Origin: Thermococcus sp. JdFR-02
Lineage (GTDB): Archaea > Methanobacteriota_B > Thermococci > Thermococcales > Thermococcaceae
Direction: 5' to 3'
Length of the DNA: 64,000 bases
Assembly: GCA_002009975.1 (NCBI GenBank)
Contig: MTLP01000012.1
Coordinates: 62,001-126,000 of the forward strand
Shown here: positions 25,702-32,105 of the stretch, one piece after another
Layout: each line of letters starts with the position of its first letter
How positions within the stretch are numbered: the first letter of the stretch is position 1
Translations under genes and position numbers: made by a program
The notes under the pieces: generated by a model
Told to the model about the DNA's origin: nothing
The model's database searches: none
What the model saw: the letters and a program-made list of their open reading frames with translations, nothing else

Positions 25702-28314
25702 TCAGCTAATTTCGACTTCGGCAAATACGGTTATTGTATCCTCATCTGTCCATTCTTGTCCTACATCGACGTCATGTATGCTTGGATTGTCTGGTAATGT
25801 CTCAACTGCTGAATCACCAGCACTTGCACCTGTTATCCATGCTACAATTGCAATCTTGCTTGGCTTTCCTCCCAGCATATCCCATGGAACTGCGATTTCT
25901 AAAGTTTGAAGTCCTTTTTCTTTTCCTGTCCATGTTGCAAAGCCTATATCTGCCAAGTTGTAGTACTCCCAACCTTCTCCGTTCCATACTGTTAGTTGCA
26001 TTGTTTCAATTGAATCGGTTCCTTTCTCACCAAAGAACTCTCCGAACCACCAGAAGTAAAGCTCATAGTCAATTCCTCTTGAGAAGCTTAATCTTCTTCC
26101 CCATGCATCAGCTCCAGTAGTATAGCCACCTTCTTTTGTATCTAAGGCGATTCCATAGGCAATTCTCCATGATGCCTTGTTTTCTGTCGTTAGAGCTATA
26201 TAAAGGAAGCTATCATCGTAGTCAACATATAAGGCTTTTAAGTTGGCTCCATCTTGTCCAAAGCCGGTTGTGTCTTCATAAACTAAAGTTTCTGGACTCC
26301 AATCGCTTAAATCTCCATCAATGGCTTTTGTTAATTTGGTTGCTAAGAGCTCTCCCTCAACGGCTTGCATGAATGCATTTATTTCTCTTTGAAGTCTTAT
26401 TAAGCTTGAATATGCTGAGAATATTTTCGTGGCTCCACTGAATTGTGAGTGTGCTTCACCTATTAAAGCTTCTCCTTTGCCAAACTTTTCTTTACTTAAA
26501 TTCAATTGTTCATAGAACCTTGTCAGGTTCTCTTGATACTTCAATGGTAGTTTAGCTTCAGAGATGCTCTTTAAGAGTGCTAATGTCTCTGCGTATTTCT
26601 TTTCATAAAGCTTTGGCCATACATAGGTGGCTAAATTAACGAAGTTTCTCTGTGCAATCTCTATCTTTCCAACTTCAACAGTTACAGTTGCTACATTGTT
26701 ATCTTCATTTGCTTCTTCGATTAAATTATCTGGATCCACAATTGCTTTGAATTCATAAGTTCCTGTGGCTGATGGTTTCCATTCATACGTAAGTACTTCG
26801 CTTCCTTTAGCTGTTACATTTACTGTCCAGGTTTTTATAATCTCATCATTTACTAGAAGTTGAACATCAACATTTTTTGCATCTATAATTCCATAGTTTT
26901 CTACAGTGATTGTCAGGTTGGTGGTTTCATACCTCTCAATTTCAAGTTTTGAAGCTTCTAACTTTACTGCAAGCTCTGGTTTGGGTATTGGGATTGAAAG
27001 GACAGCAAAATTGCTTAGATAGTCCTGATCAACCCAGTCATTTCCATCGATATCAGCATCTGCTGGGGTCACATCTACAGCTGAACTTCCATCTCCACCA
27101 GCAACCCATGCCATAATAGCCATTTCTGACGCCTTTCCTCCTAATGCATCCCATGGAATTCTAATTTCTAAGGTTTGAAGTCCATTATTGCCGCCAGTGT
27201 AGGCATATTCAAAACTTGCAAAATTATAATCCCAGCTTTCCCAATAATTATTTCCGATGTATCCATTGTACCTATTGAAGTTAGCTGAAGTTATAGCCTT
27301 ACTTCCTCCACTCCACCAGAAGTAGACCTCATAATCAACGCCTCTTGAAAAGCCTATTTTTCTTCCCCAAGAATCCTGATTTCCAGTATAACCACCATCT
27401 GTTACATCTATACCAATTCCATATGCTACATCCCAACTTTGTGTGTTGTTTGTTTCTAGGGCTATGTACAAATATTGATCGTCATAAGAAACATAGAGCT
27501 TATCCAAATCTGCACCTGCTTGTATAGACAAATTGCTTACTCCAACGACTTCATAGCTTGCCCAATCACTTAAGTTCCCATCAATGGTTTTTGGAGCGAT
27601 TATTATCTCAGCCAAGTTACTAAATGTATCATCGTCATTCCATTCTCCTGAACCATATCTCTCATTTACAACTTCATGCAAAGTTTGATCTTCGGGGAGT
27701 GAATCAACTGCAGAACTGTCATCTCCTCCAGCTATCCATGAGATTAAAGCTATTTTGTTGGGTTTGCCACCTAAAGCGGACCAAGGTATCTTAATCTCTA
27801 GTATTTGCAGACCATTTGAGGTGTCTCCGGTATAAGAAAATGATGCTCCAACATCCCCAAGGGATTTATAGTCCCATCCACTACCAGTCCATGCTATAAA
27901 GTTGTCTGCTGTTATTCCGCTTCCTCCATCCCACCAGAAGTAGACCTCATAGTCTGGATAATAGCCATTGAATGCAATGTGTCTTCCCCATGCATCGGTG
28001 GTTCCATCATACCCATTGGTCGTTCCAGGGTCAACATCAATTGCAAAACCATAAGCCAAGTTCCAGCTTTGTGTATTATCGGTTTTTATGGCAATGTAAA
28101 GATATTCATCATCCCAAGCAACATATAAATCTTTTAAATCTGCTCCGGGACCCCCACCAGGATAATCATTTGTGGCAATCAAATCGAGGGTTCCCCATTC
28201 GTTTAAGTTACCATCTGCAAACTTTGTTCCATATAGCCCCAATGTAAAATTCGTAGGTATTAGGCTCACTAAAAACACAAACAGTAATATACAAGTCTTT
28301 ACATTTCCTCTCAT
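25702..28314 (-). CDS. Secreted protein with three carbohydrate-binding-like modules and a CARDB domain
   Basis: 870 residues with a signal peptide (about 1-26). Three related modules of about 200 residues (about 30-235, 240-440, 665-870) share the pattern DGNLSDW, LKxLYVxxDDxYLYIALxTxNxxSW and the WxxGGxxSA tail, resembling CBM9/DOMON or glucodextranase C-terminal modules. A CARDB-like domain (about 450-555) and a helical spacer lie between modules two and three. No catalytic domain, membrane anchor or CGP-CTERM is visible. It is divergent from the GH57 glucanotransferase and has its own glycolytic motif, so a starch/maltodextrin-binding role is inferred. Confidence 0.82.
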   Translation of the reverse strand: MRGNVKTCILLFVFLVSLIPTNFTLGLYGTKFADGNLNEWGTLDLIATNDYPGGGPGADLKDLYVAWDDEYLYIAIKTDNTQSWNLAYGFAIDVDPGTTNGYDGTTDAWGRHIAFNGYYPDYEVYFWWDGGSGITADNFIAWTGSGWDYKSLGDVGASFSYTGDTSNGLQILEIKIPWSALGGKPNKIALISWIAGGDDSSAVDSLPEDQTLHEVVNERYGSGEWNDDDTFSNLAEIIIAPKTIDGNLSDWASYEVVGVSNLSIQAGADLDKLYVSYDDQYLYIALETNNTQSWDVAYGIGIDVTDGGYTGNQDSWGRKIGFSRGVDYEVYFWWSGGSKAITSANFNRYNGYIGNNYWESWDYNFASFEYAYTGGNNGLQTLEIRIPWDALGGKASEMAIMAWVAGGDGSSAVDVTPADADIDGNDWVDQDYLSNFAVLSIPIPKPELAVKLEASKLEIERYETTNLTITVENYGIIDAKNVDVQLLVNDEIIKTWTVNVTAKGSEVLTYEWKPSATGTYEFKAIVDPDNLIEEANEDNNVATVTVEVGKIEIAQRNFVNLATYVWPKLYEKKYAETLALLKSISEAKLPLKYQENLTRFYEQLNLSKEKFGKGEALIGEAHSQFSGATKIFSAYSSLIRLQREINAFMQAVEGELLATKLTKAIDGDLSDWSPETLVYEDTTGFGQDGANLKALYVDYDDSFLYIALTTENKASWRIAYGIALDTKEGGYTTGADAWGRRLSFSRGIDYELYFWWFGEFFGEKGTDSIETMQLTVWNGEGWEYYNLADIGFATWTGKEKGLQTLEIAVPWDMLGGKPSKIAIVAWITGASAGDSAVETLPDNPSIHDVDVGQEWTDEDTITVFAEVEIS

Positions 28315-28318
28315 GTGT

Positions 28319-28335
28319 AATCACCTCGGGTGATA
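28319..28335 (-). promoter_or_regulatory. Near-perfect Thermococcales glycolytic motif before the secreted-protein gene
   Basis: On the plus strand it reads AATCAC-CTCGG-GTGATA, 11 of 12 matches to TATCAC-N5-GTGATA, the site of the sugar-responsive regulator Tgr/TrmBL1. It overlaps the ribosome-binding sequence GAGGTGA and lies downstream of the minus-strand TATA (CCTATATATC, about 28352-28361). That position is the repression arrangement in this order. Confidence 0.75.
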
Positions 28336-28365
28336 ATTGCTCACCCTTGTTGATATATAGGCATA

Positions 28366-28378
28366 AAATATTTATATA
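28366..28378 (+). promoter_or_regulatory. TATA box for the 4-alpha-glucanotransferase gene
   Basis: AAATATTTATATATC contains a strong archaeal TATA element about 25 bases before the glycolytic motif at 28389. The expected start site (about 28399) lies inside that motif, so regulator binding would block initiation. A second TATA (28352-28361) on the other strand serves the divergent gene. Confidence 0.65.
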
Positions 28379-28388
28379 TCTTTTTAAA

Positions 28389-28405
28389 TATCACTGTTAG
28401 TGATA
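28389..28405 (+). promoter_or_regulatory. Perfect Thermococcales glycolytic motif (TGM) before GH57
   Basis: TATCACTGTTAGTGATA matches TATCAC-N5-GTGATA exactly. In Thermococcales a TGM downstream of the TATA box gives repression by Tgr/TrmBL1 in the absence of maltodextrins, and one upstream of BRE/TATA gives activation of gluconeogenic genes. Here it is downstream, predicting sugar induction of the glucanotransferase. Confidence 0.88.
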
Positions 28406-28426: not shown

Positions 28427-30409
28427 ATGGGAAAAATCAATTTCATCTTTGGCATCCATAATCATCAGCCGCTTGGAAACTTCGGTTGGGTCTTTGAAGA
28501 TGCCTATAATAACTCCTACAGACCATTCATGGAGATCCTTGAAGAGTTTCCTCAAATGAAAATGGCTGTTCACTTTAGCGGACCGCTTTTAGAATGGTTA
28601 GAAGAGAACAAACCTGACTATATTGATTTGCTTAAACGTTTGATTAAAAAAGGGCAGTTGGAGATTGTGGTTGCTGGCTTTTATGAGCCAGTTCTGGCAG
28701 CTATTCCTAAAGAAGATAGGCTTTTGCAGATTAAACTCCTTAAAGATTATGCTAAGAAGCTCGGATATGATGCAAAAGGCGTTTGGTTGACGGAAAGGGT
28801 TTGGCAGCCTGAATTAGTTAAAAGTTTAAGGCAAGCTGGTATAGAATATGTCGTCGTTGATGATTACCATTTCATGTCCGCTGGTTTAAGAAAGGAAGAC
28901 TTGTATTGGCCCTATTACACGGAGGATGGAGGGGAGGTAATAGCCGTTTTCCCAATTGATGAGAAGCTTAGATATTTAATCCCATTTAGACCTGTTGAAA
29001 AAACCATAAAATATCTTGAAAGTTTAATCGATAATGATCCTTCAAAATTAGCGGTTTTCCATGATGATGGAGAAAAATTTGGTGTTTGGCCCGGAACACA
29101 TGATTGGGTCTATAATAAGGGTTGGCTTAGGAAGTTTTTTGATGCAATAACGAGCAACGAGAAGATCAACTTAATGACTTATAGTGAATATCTCTCCCTT
29201 TATTCACCTAAGGGTTTGATTTATCTTCCAATTGCTTCCTATTTTGAAATGAGTGAATGGTCTCTCCCTGCTAATCAAGCAAAGCTCTTTGTTGAGTTTG
29301 TTGAGCAATTGAAAAAGGAAGGGAAGTTTGAGAAGTATAGGGTTTTTGTTAGGGGAGGAATCTGGAAGAACTTCTTCTACAAATATCCAGAATCAAACTT
29401 CATGCACAAGAGGATGCTCTATGTTAGCAAATTAGTTAGGAATATCGAAGAAGCACGCCTTTATATTTTAAAAGCCCAATGTAATGATGCTTACTGGCAT
29501 GGTGTCTTTGGCGGTGTTTACTTACCTCATTTGAGGAGAACAGTCTGGGAGAATTTGATAAAAGCCCAAAGCTTTGTTTCAAAGAATGGAGTTAAAATCT
29601 TTGACGTTGACTATGATGGAAGAAAAGAGATAATGATAGAAAATTCAGGATTTATAGCCACAATCAAGCCTCATTACGGTGGGAGCATCTTTGAGCTAAG
29701 CTCAAAGCACAAATTTGTCAATTATAACGATGTGTTGGCTAGAAGATGGGAGCATTATCATGAAGTCCAAGAAGCTGCAACTCCCGAAGAGGAGAGCAAT
29801 GAAGGTGTTGCAAGTATTCATGAGCTTGGAAAAAACATTCCAGAAGAAATAAAGCGTGAATTGGCATATGATTGGCAGTTAAGGGCTATTTTGCAGGATC
29901 ATTTCATTAAAGAAAGTGAAACTTTAGATAATTACCGCTTAGTTAGGTATCAAGAGCTTGGGGATTTCGTTAATCAGCCTTATGAGTTTGAGATTGATGG
30001 GAGAAGAATTAAGCTCTGGCGTGAAGGAGGAATTTATACTGAAGAAAAAATTCCAGCTAAGGTCGAAAAGACTATTGAGCTAACTCAAGATGGCTTTGTT
30101 GCAAAGTATAAAGTAAGCTTAGAAAAGCCGTATAAATCTCTCTTTGGCGTTGAGATAAATTTAGCGGTTCATAGCGTAATGGAAAGTCCAGGGGAGTTTG
30201 AAGCTGATAGAATTGAAGTTAATGACACATATGGAATTGGCAAAGTGGTTATAGAGACGAGCAGGAAGGTTAAGGTTTGGAAATTCCCAATTAAAACTCT
30301 CTCTCAATCAGAGAGTGGATGGGACTTCATACAGCAAGGGGTCAGCTATACTCTGCTTTTCCCAATTGAAAAGGAGCTTGAGTTTGAGATAAGGTTTAAG
30401 GAGATTTGA
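28427..30409 (+). CDS. 4-alpha-glucanotransferase, glycoside hydrolase family 57
   Basis: 660 residues from ATG 28427, which follows GGAGGTG by five bases. It transfers maltodextrin segments between alpha-1,4-glucan chains in maltose/starch use. The nucleophile E123 in WLTERVWQPE and acid/base D214 in FHDDGEKFG fall at exactly the positions known for the Thermococcus litoralis enzyme. The N-terminal GIHNHQPLGNFG motif is intact, and the C-terminal half forms the usual beta-sandwich domains. No signal peptide, so it acts in the cytosol. Controlled by the TGM just upstream. Confidence 0.96.
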   Translation: MGKINFIFGIHNHQPLGNFGWVFEDAYNNSYRPFMEILEEFPQMKMAVHFSGPLLEWLEENKPDYIDLLKRLIKKGQLEIVVAGFYEPVLAAIPKEDRLLQIKLLKDYAKKLGYDAKGVWLTERVWQPELVKSLRQAGIEYVVVDDYHFMSAGLRKEDLYWPYYTEDGGEVIAVFPIDEKLRYLIPFRPVEKTIKYLESLIDNDPSKLAVFHDDGEKFGVWPGTHDWVYNKGWLRKFFDAITSNEKINLMTYSEYLSLYSPKGLIYLPIASYFEMSEWSLPANQAKLFVEFVEQLKKEGKFEKYRVFVRGGIWKNFFYKYPESNFMHKRMLYVSKLVRNIEEARLYILKAQCNDAYWHGVFGGVYLPHLRRTVWENLIKAQSFVSKNGVKIFDVDYDGRKEIMIENSGFIATIKPHYGGSIFELSSKHKFVNYNDVLARRWEHYHEVQEAATPEEESNEGVASIHELGKNIPEEIKRELAYDWQLRAILQDHFIKESETLDNYRLVRYQELGDFVNQPYEFEIDGRRIKLWREGGIYTEEKIPAKVEKTIELTQDGFVAKYKVSLEKPYKSLFGVEINLAVHSVMESPGEFEADRIEVNDTYGIGKVVIETSRKVKVWKFPIKTLSQSESGWDFIQQGVSYTLLFPIEKELEFEIRFKEI

Positions 30410-30413
30410 TTTT

Positions 30414-32105
30414 TTAATTTGTTACAATTTTTATTCCACCGATTTCATAACTGCTCTTACCTTGCCATGCTCCACTTCCTCCCCCATTTATTATCCAATC
30501 GTTCGGGTCAATTATGACCTTTTCAGGCTTATTTTTAAGTTCGAATGTTAAAGTTGCATTCTTATCAACGAATACCCTTTTCAAATAGCTTTTTCCTTGA
30601 GAATCAACAACTTTCACTTCTAATGGCATTTTGAAACCATTTGTTTCCACTATTTGAAGAGTTAAGAAATATTTTCCATCTTTTTGCTCTAAGGTTGCAT
30701 TAGAGACTTCAAAATTGGGATAGCCCGTTTTATAAAACCACTCATCAAAGAACCATTCTAGGCTTTGATTCGAAACTTTCTCAAAAATCTTCTGGATTTG
30801 CTTTAAAGTTGTCATGGTGTCTTGGGCACAATCATTTAGATGACAGTATTCCAGTAGCTCCCTCATTCCTTTGAAGAATGTTTCATTTCCCAAAACAAAC
30901 TGCAAAGAGCGGAAAACAAAAGCATTTTTATAATATAAGGCAATCATATTTTCTCCATTGTTTTCCTTAATTTCTGCAATTGGAGTTCTATCCGTTGAAC
31001 TCAAGCATTTTCTTTCAATATCATCGTATTGAGTTAAATTATTCTCATAAAGCAGGACGGCATAGGTAGCTATTCCCTCATGTATTGGGTAAAGATTGGC
31101 ATAAACACCAAACCAGTTATGTGCTGTCTCATGGGCAATCAACGGAATGTAAAACTGAGTTGCTATTATTCCCCCATCTAGTCCATGCCCCCTGTACTTA
31201 CTCTTTGAGTACTTGATCTGTATATAAAAGTATTCGTCGTTGGGATAAGGCATAAAAACCTTTGAGTAAAAACGTAGGATATCTTTGATATTCTGCAAAA
31301 CCCATTCACCTTCATCTGTGAGAGCAATTATCTTAACGGTTCTGTTTCCAATTTTCATGCTCTCTTCATAGAGGTTCCACTTTCCGAATATTAAATAGAA
31401 ATCGTTTAGGTTTTCTTTTTCAAAGCTTCCATTGTAGAGTAAGGGCTTAAATCTCCAGATCTCTGATTGAAATGGCTGATCCAGTATGATGAGGGTGTAA
31501 TCTTTTGGATAATCGATCCTAACATTAACCCTCTCTTTGTCACTTTGTAAATTATTCCAGATAGTAAAGTATCTTTTTGGAATATAGATATGCAAGGAAT
31601 TTTGACTTAAATGACGGTCTAGATAGCTTTTTGGTTTCTCACGGAAAGGATTGTATCTCACTTTAAAATGAACTTCAACAGTTACAGTTTTGACTTTTGG
31701 GGTTATGTTAAGCAAGATTAGTCTATTTTCTTTGTCTTTAAATCCACTATATGTAGCTGAAGCATTATACACCATAATTTTATCAACCTGCTTAAAATCT
31801 TCAAAAAGGATTGGATATAATGCAGAATGATTCAGGGGGAAAGTGATCCTCTCAGTTCCTACAATTGAGACATGATTGTCGTCTATACTGATATTTAAGA
31901 GATAGTGATAAGAGGCATAGGACGTAAAAAGCTTATTTCCCTGATAAAGTTCATCTAACTTTTCTTTTTCTGTTTTTTGAAAAGTTATCTCTTGAGTAAG
32001 ATTCTCTATTATTAAAACGCTTTTTGGATTTGCTTTGTTCAAAACAAAAGCATAAGAAAAGAGTGTTATAGTGATCATCATGACTAAAAGTATAAACTTT
32101 TTCAT
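30414..32105 (-). CDS. M1-like (gluzincin) membrane-anchored or secreted metallopeptidase, divergent
   Basis: 563 residues from ATG 32105 (GGTGGT upstream). An N-terminal hydrophobic segment (about 4-22) exports or anchors it. A zinc motif HETAH (325-329) is followed by E343 in IHEGIATY, giving 13 residues between the second histidine and the glutamate where typical M1 peptidases have 18. The GxMEN exopeptidase motif is replaced by GHGLDGG. A C-terminal beta domain (about 465-545) resembles the M1 beta-sandwich. Aminopeptidase activity is thus doubtful; an endopeptidase or binding role is possible. Two N-glycosylation-like sites lie in the N-terminal half. Confidence 0.75.
   Translation of the reverse strand: MKKFILLVMMITITLFSYAFVLNKANPKSVLIIENLTQEITFQKTEKEKLDELYQGNKLFTSYASYHYLLNISIDDNHVSIVGTERITFPLNHSALYPILFEDFKQVDKIMVYNASATYSGFKDKENRLILLNITPKVKTVTVEVHFKVRYNPFREKPKSYLDRHLSQNSLHIYIPKRYFTIWNNLQSDKERVNVRIDYPKDYTLIILDQPFQSEIWRFKPLLYNGSFEKENLNDFYLIFGKWNLYEESMKIGNRTVKIIALTDEGEWVLQNIKDILRFYSKVFMPYPNDEYFYIQIKYSKSKYRGHGLDGGIIATQFYIPLIAHETAHNWFGVYANLYPIHEGIATYAVLLYENNLTQYDDIERKCLSSTDRTPIAEIKENNGENMIALYYKNAFVFRSLQFVLGNETFFKGMRELLEYCHLNDCAQDTMTTLKQIQKIFEKVSNQSLEWFFDEWFYKTGYPNFEVSNATLEQKDGKYFLTLQIVETNGFKMPLEVKVVDSQGKSYLKRVFVDKNATLTFELKNKPEKVIIDPNDWIINGGGSGAWQGKSSYEIGGIKIVTN

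Follow-up and report, generated by a model that had tools for sequence, protein, structure and literature searches.

The divergent gene pair and its intergenic region

Two genes lie back to back in the window (the whole 64-kb stretch of DNA that was analyzed), with a gap of 112 bp between them. Judged from its sequence, the plus-strand gene is a 4-alpha-glucanotransferase of the T. litoralis type (PDB 1k1w); the catalytic, middle, and C-terminal domains are all present in its product, which matches 1k1w over its full length. The minus-strand gene encodes a protein with a signal-like N terminus, three repeats of ~200 amino acids (CBM9-like by fold), and one CARDB domain that matches the CARDB structures of P. 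furiosus PF1109 (3idu/2kl6), and by the same kind of evidence it is a relative of PF1109. The gene identities given in the preliminary description were thus borne out by the Pfam, PDB 1k1w, and CARDB matches. PF1109 is described as an extracellular starch-binding protein of P. furiosus that is up-regulated on starch (PMC3824201). In our model of one repeat (pTM 0.83), the only fold match below an E value of 0.001 was the CBM9 module 1i82 (2.4e-4, TM ~0.4), and the repeat profile gave a weak CBM74 match (E 0.0017). Given the CARDB match to PF1109 together with these CBM9 and CBM74 matches, we infer that the secreted protein likely binds starch. No relatives of the secreted protein were found among viral contigs, and an NCBIfam profile search returned no matches. 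Matches to the secreted gene are broken over several frames in four relatives (G003, G009, G030, and G074), and the GH57 gene is also split in G074, which suggests decay or frameshifts in some relatives. At its other end, the GH57 gene meets a convergent M1-peptidase-like gene, and the two ends are 4 bp apart (window positions 30409-30414). The features considered below are as follows.

28427..30409, plus strand: GH57 4-alpha-glucanotransferase gene, 660 amino acids, Pfam PF03065/PF09094/PF09095
25702..28314, minus strand: secreted protein gene, 870 amino acids, start ATG at 28314, CARDB domain match
28389-28405, plus strand: main TGM operator, TATCACTGTTAGTGATA, 0 mismatches, over the predicted GH57 start (~28400)
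28370..28379, both strands: shared TATA, ATTTATAT on the plus strand (28370-28377) and ATATATAA on the minus strand (28379-28372), top-scoring in the intergenic region on either strand
28364..28369, plus strand: predicted BRE of the GH57 promoter, TAAAAT, a block conserved in relatives
28380..28385, minus strand: predicted secreted-gene BRE, AAAAAG (minus-strand reading), represented in relatives by a C(Y)TTT tract
28339-28355, minus strand: site B, weak TGM-like, GCTCACCCTTGTTGATA, 3 mismatches, centered on the predicted secreted-gene start
28319-28335, minus strand: site A, one-mismatch TGM, AATCACCTCGGGTGATA (TATCACCCGAGGTGATT on the gene strand), in the secreted-gene leader, with one arm forming the Shine-Dalgarno sequence
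28320..28327, minus strand: Shine-Dalgarno sequence of the secreted gene, GAGGTGAT, within site A, ahead of the start ATG at 28314

The TGM consensus was tested as the palindrome TATCAC-N5-GTGATA, with the reversed pattern as the control. The genome (2.36 Mb) contains 3 exact matches versus 0 for the control and 19 matches with up to one mismatch versus 6. Across the whole window, only the main TGM and site A match with 0 or 1 mismatch. These are the two sites described earlier, the exact one behind the GH57 TATA box and the one with a single mismatch that overlaps the secreted-gene leader on the opposite strand, and both are present; the weaker site B had been missed. Site B lies exactly 50 bp from the main TGM, and one of its 3 mismatches falls in the core. 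Site A sits 20 bp further into the secreted-gene leader than site B, wholly within the predicted leader (about +15 to +31), with the Shine-Dalgarno sequence formed by its inner arm. Of 16 GGTGA Shine-Dalgarno sequences in the window, only that of the secreted gene has TCAC in the TGM register; the ribosome site alone therefore does not account for the site A palindrome.

Promoter elements were scored with hand-set parameters from the published P. furiosus consensus, namely, RRAAA, WTTTAAAW, and a start 23 bp past the last TATA base (PMC6640164). This scoring predicted starts at ~28400 for the GH57 gene and ~28349 for the secreted gene, 51 bp apart; the starts of shared-TATA pairs in P. furiosus are 49 to 50 bp apart (PMC6640164). 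The TGM centers fall on these predicted starts (main TGM, 28397; site B, 28347), and the operator on the secreted-gene start is probably site B rather than site A. The predicted elements also uphold the placement of the TGMs downstream of TATA, in the repressed mode, as first proposed. The view of the locus as a divergent promoter pair stands as to its divergence, but the promoters are probably not separate, since one and the same BRE-TATA-BRE element scores best on either strand. A sigma-70 scan gave two weak matches near shuffle level, and the sigma-70 promoter model does not apply to archaea. A terminator-like match from that scan at 28328-28346, which we did not take as a terminator, is the inverted repeat GGGTGA-N7-TCACCC composed of site A and site B arms; it would give the secreted-gene mRNA a 5'-terminal hairpin.

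The candidate regulator and its regulon

A TrmBL1/Tgr gene is present in this genome (locus L241:8513-9538). It encodes 341 amino acids with PF01978 and PF11495, adjoins maltodextrin transporter (mdx) and amylase genes, and carries Y49, D50, G324, and E330, which are listed as key residues of T. kodakarensis Tgr (PMC4158304). Binding of TrmBL1 past the TATA box leads to repression, and maltotriose or maltose releases the protein; binding and maltotriose release have been described only for P. furiosus and T. kodakarensis (PMC4158304, PMC4706686). In P. furiosus, TrmBL1 binds the TGMs of PF0272 and PF1109 in vivo; both are ChIP-seq targets with a downstream TGM (PMC4706686). There are six Regulator_TrmB matches in the genome, i.e., five besides TrmBL1/Tgr, so another paralogue could bind the sites.

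Other TGM sites in the genome precede genes for GH13 enzymes (amylases), GPI, FBPase, two sugar-binding proteins, inositol-phosphate synthase, and a PadR regulator; in P. furiosus, a PadR regulator (PF1476) is a target too. Together, these genes make up the expected regulon. One exact TGM (L062:1077-1093; G000:C6:42076-42092) lies between divergent genes for a rubrerythrin and an ODP-family flavoprotein, which look like oxygen-defense rather than sugar genes. The right half of the TGM doubles as the Shine-Dalgarno sequence in this genome's amylase-type genes and in secreted homologues of another genus, g2, as well (L061:1098-1114, L071:1004-1020, and L245-L248). A one-mismatch TGM before an eIF1A-like gene (L075; G000:C13:46860) is probably only a Shine-Dalgarno coincidence. 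Because of this resemblance between TGM halves and Shine-Dalgarno sequences, a control is needed when start-codon regions are scanned for the motif.

Conservation and association with the divergent gene

We compared GH57 promoters from 80 Thermococcaceae genomes, taking the start of the main TGM as the zero point for offsets. That operator is exact in 73 of the 80 relatives and has one mismatch in one further; it is absent from five genomes of genus g2 and from G107. The core of the second site is kept at fixed distances in 45 relatives, which fall into two classes. Class I comprises 21 loci from five genera, the window locus included, with site A at -70/-71 and site B at -50/-51. Across 9 distinct versions of site A, TCAC-N5-GTGATA is invariant, and the two inner bases next to GTGATA vary (GG, TG, AG, AA, and GA), consistent with the N5 of the TGM being free. 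Site B is present in all class I loci, where it departs from the core at one or two bases and is the weaker of the two. Class II comprises 24 loci, mostly of one genus; here a TCAC-N5-GTGA core without mismatch lies between -49 and -52, most often at -52, and the TGM resemblance at -72 is much weaker. Most Thermococcus have a perfect-core site at -52 in place of the weak -50 site. When ~105 offsets were scanned, the top two after the main site were -70 and -50 in class I and -52 and -72 (the latter weak) in class II. The -50/-52 sites coincide with the predicted reverse start in both classes. A main TGM that is exact in 73 of 80 genomes and a second core at fixed distances in 45 exclude chance, and a chance match as the origin of the second site was ruled out by this conservation together with the Shine-Dalgarno control.

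The second sites track the divergent gene. A perfect second core (at -48 to -54 or -68 to -73) was found at 41 of 43 loci with the divergent gene versus 4 of 31 without it (Fisher 9e-14), and at 14/16 versus 3/24 when one representative was taken per cluster below 80% identity (2.8e-6). The C(Y)TTT tract between TATA and the main TGM behaves in the same way (43/43 versus 9/31; 5.5e-12, or 1.2e-5 with representatives), although neither set of Fisher counts is fully independent of phylogeny. On the other strand this tract is a purine BRE, and so the reverse BRE tracks the divergent gene. The second sites and the reverse BRE have mostly been lost where the secreted gene was lost. The exceptions are G098 and G100, which have the divergent gene without a perfect second core, and G010, G025, G034, and G105, which show a second site with no divergent gene detected. 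Two of the latter (G010, L169; G025, L201) carry a second TGM-like site at -50/-49, as if it served GH57 alone or were a relic. In genus g2, which is probably Pyrococcus, four of the five genomes examined have the secreted homologue elsewhere, with its own TGM (1 to 2 mismatches) after a TATA box and fused to the Shine-Dalgarno sequence. GH57 promoters of this genus (G024, G028, and G011; L234-L236) have no TGM; TTCACCACTCATAGTGACTA is found near the start, as if the halves had moved apart.

A proposed shared sugar-controlled promoter and its relation to known systems

Building on the observed sites, their spacing and conservation, their association with the divergent gene, the TATA that scores best on both strands, and the regulator gene, we propose that the 112-bp gap is probably a single sugar-controlled two-way promoter, in which a shared BRE-TATA-BRE is combined with a TrmBL1/Tgr operator at each predicted start, the additional site A, and joint induction. 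Archaeal symmetrical TATA boxes fire both ways, and two-way BRE-TATA-BRE promoters are known from P. furiosus (PMC6640164). At this locus, the single, nearly symmetrical TATA with a BRE on either side would let TBP and TFB assemble in both directions, giving transcripts that start ~51 bp apart (~28400 for GH57 and ~28349 for the secreted gene). The regulator would sit on each start, at the main TGM for GH57 and at site B for the secreted gene, and site A would serve as a stronger extra operator 20 bp deeper in the secreted-gene leader. In the absence of maltodextrin, TrmBL1/Tgr would occupy the sites and block RNA polymerase both ways; maltodextrins such as maltotriose would release it, and both genes would be induced. 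The actual starts, the binding to sites A and B, and the joint induction are predictions of this model. The preliminary description had likewise expected maltodextrin to co-induce the GH57 and secreted genes, and this expectation is well supported by inference. Points against the shared-promoter model include the weakness of site B, with 3 mismatches, and the place of site A, off the usual operator position at the start, besides the exceptional genomes, the phylogenetic dependence of the Fisher counts, the hand-set TATA scoring, and the TrmB paralogues noted above.

A more elaborate version, which we regard as possible but doubtful, has the operators at 0, -50, and -70 (class II: 0, -52, and a weak -72) bridged by a TrmBL1 tetramer or octamer around the shared TATA, locking both directions. 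The two genes might then compete for TBP/TFB after induction, and the strong and weak roles within the 20-bp pair would have been swapped between lineages. On this reading, the operators would be spaced by nearly whole helical turns because oligomeric TrmBL1 joins them.

We consider it unlikely that each gene has a promoter of its own, with its own TATA and TGM, the secreted gene using CCTATATATC at 28351-28360 and starting in site A while site B is a chance half-site. Such a TATA-like run does exist, site A would cover the resulting start (~28329), and site A is the better TGM match of the two. However, the run is not among the best-scoring elements, lacks a good BRE, and fails to recur in class I relatives, for example G083 and G113. 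Class II, moreover, has only one usable TATA, its -52 operator fits that shared TATA, and site B is kept in all class I loci.

Control of translation or stability by an RNA hairpin in the secreted-gene leader, either GGGUGA...UCACCC or AUCACC...GGUGAU hiding the ribosome site, strikes us as quite improbable, even though the window sequence folds into either stem (-11.1 and -5.7 kcal/mol; z ~ -2.5) and 15 distinct class I versions keep most pairs, with one change on both sides and some G-U pairs. The outer pairs are broken in G027, G081, G106, and G074, and what stays invariant is the TGM core, in which GTGATA lies outside the Shine-Dalgarno sequence. In class II the perfect core falls on the predicted start itself, so that no full hairpin would be transcribed, and such short stems would presumably be weak at the growth temperature, near 85 C. 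Finally, the reading of the second site as a Shine-Dalgarno sequence that resembles a TGM half, with no TrmBL1 control of the secreted gene, has in its favor that one site A arm is a Shine-Dalgarno sequence, that TGM halves resemble the archaeal one (GGTGAT), and that the match at the eIF1A-like gene seems to be such a false positive, but it is nearly excluded by the invariance of the other arm, GTGATA, which is unrelated to the Shine-Dalgarno sequence, by this second arm accompanying only 1 of the 16 Shine-Dalgarno sequences in the window, by the class II site lying away from the Shine-Dalgarno sequence, by the TGMs of the genus g2 homologues, and by PF1109 being a ChIP target (PMC4706686).

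The shared two-way promoter that we favor combines known parts, since the regulon, the regulator, the motif, both target types, and two-way archaeal promoters are already known. Mirrored operators on a shared TATA, kept in many relatives, do not seem to have been described. In the open papers surveyed, which do not extend to the original TGM and Tgr papers (van de Werken 2006, Kanai 2007), we found no account of two real genes that share a TATA promoter and have TGM operators mirrored about it. The locus would represent a natural, conserved, sugar-controlled two-way promoter that places a secreted protein of the starch-binding type and an intracellular glucan-processing enzyme on one core element. 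It would also allow tests in Thermococcus of whether symmetrical promoters serve real gene pairs or are noise, of how a TrmB-family oligomer acts on several operators, and of competition between directions.

The closest known system is the TrmBL1/Tgr regulon of P. furiosus (PF0272 and PF1109), which shares with this locus the motif, its position past TATA and over the start, and the gene families, and whose regulator is encoded here as well. In P. furiosus, however, PF0272 and PF1109 are transcribed as separate units from distinct locations (PMC4706686), whereas the genes here form a divergent pair that has two or three sites placed about a single TATA. The P. furiosus PF1538-PF1535/PF1539 region likewise has one TrmBL1 region for two divergent units, but the proposal for that region is a single site that represses one unit and activates the other (PMC4706686), while here each start has its own predicted repressing site. 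The BRE-TATA-BRE promoters of P. furiosus (PF1918) have the same shared symmetrical TATA with a BRE on each side and starts ~50 bp apart, as predicted here; the products of the published examples are an mRNA plus an antisense RNA regarded as noise (PMC6640164), in contrast to genes in both directions and conserved operators at this locus. Bidirectional promoters of E. coli (PMC12825309) resemble it in having one symmetrical core, two divergent RNAs, and possible polymerase competition, but they are built from bacterial promoter elements, with neither archaeal factors nor a TGM.
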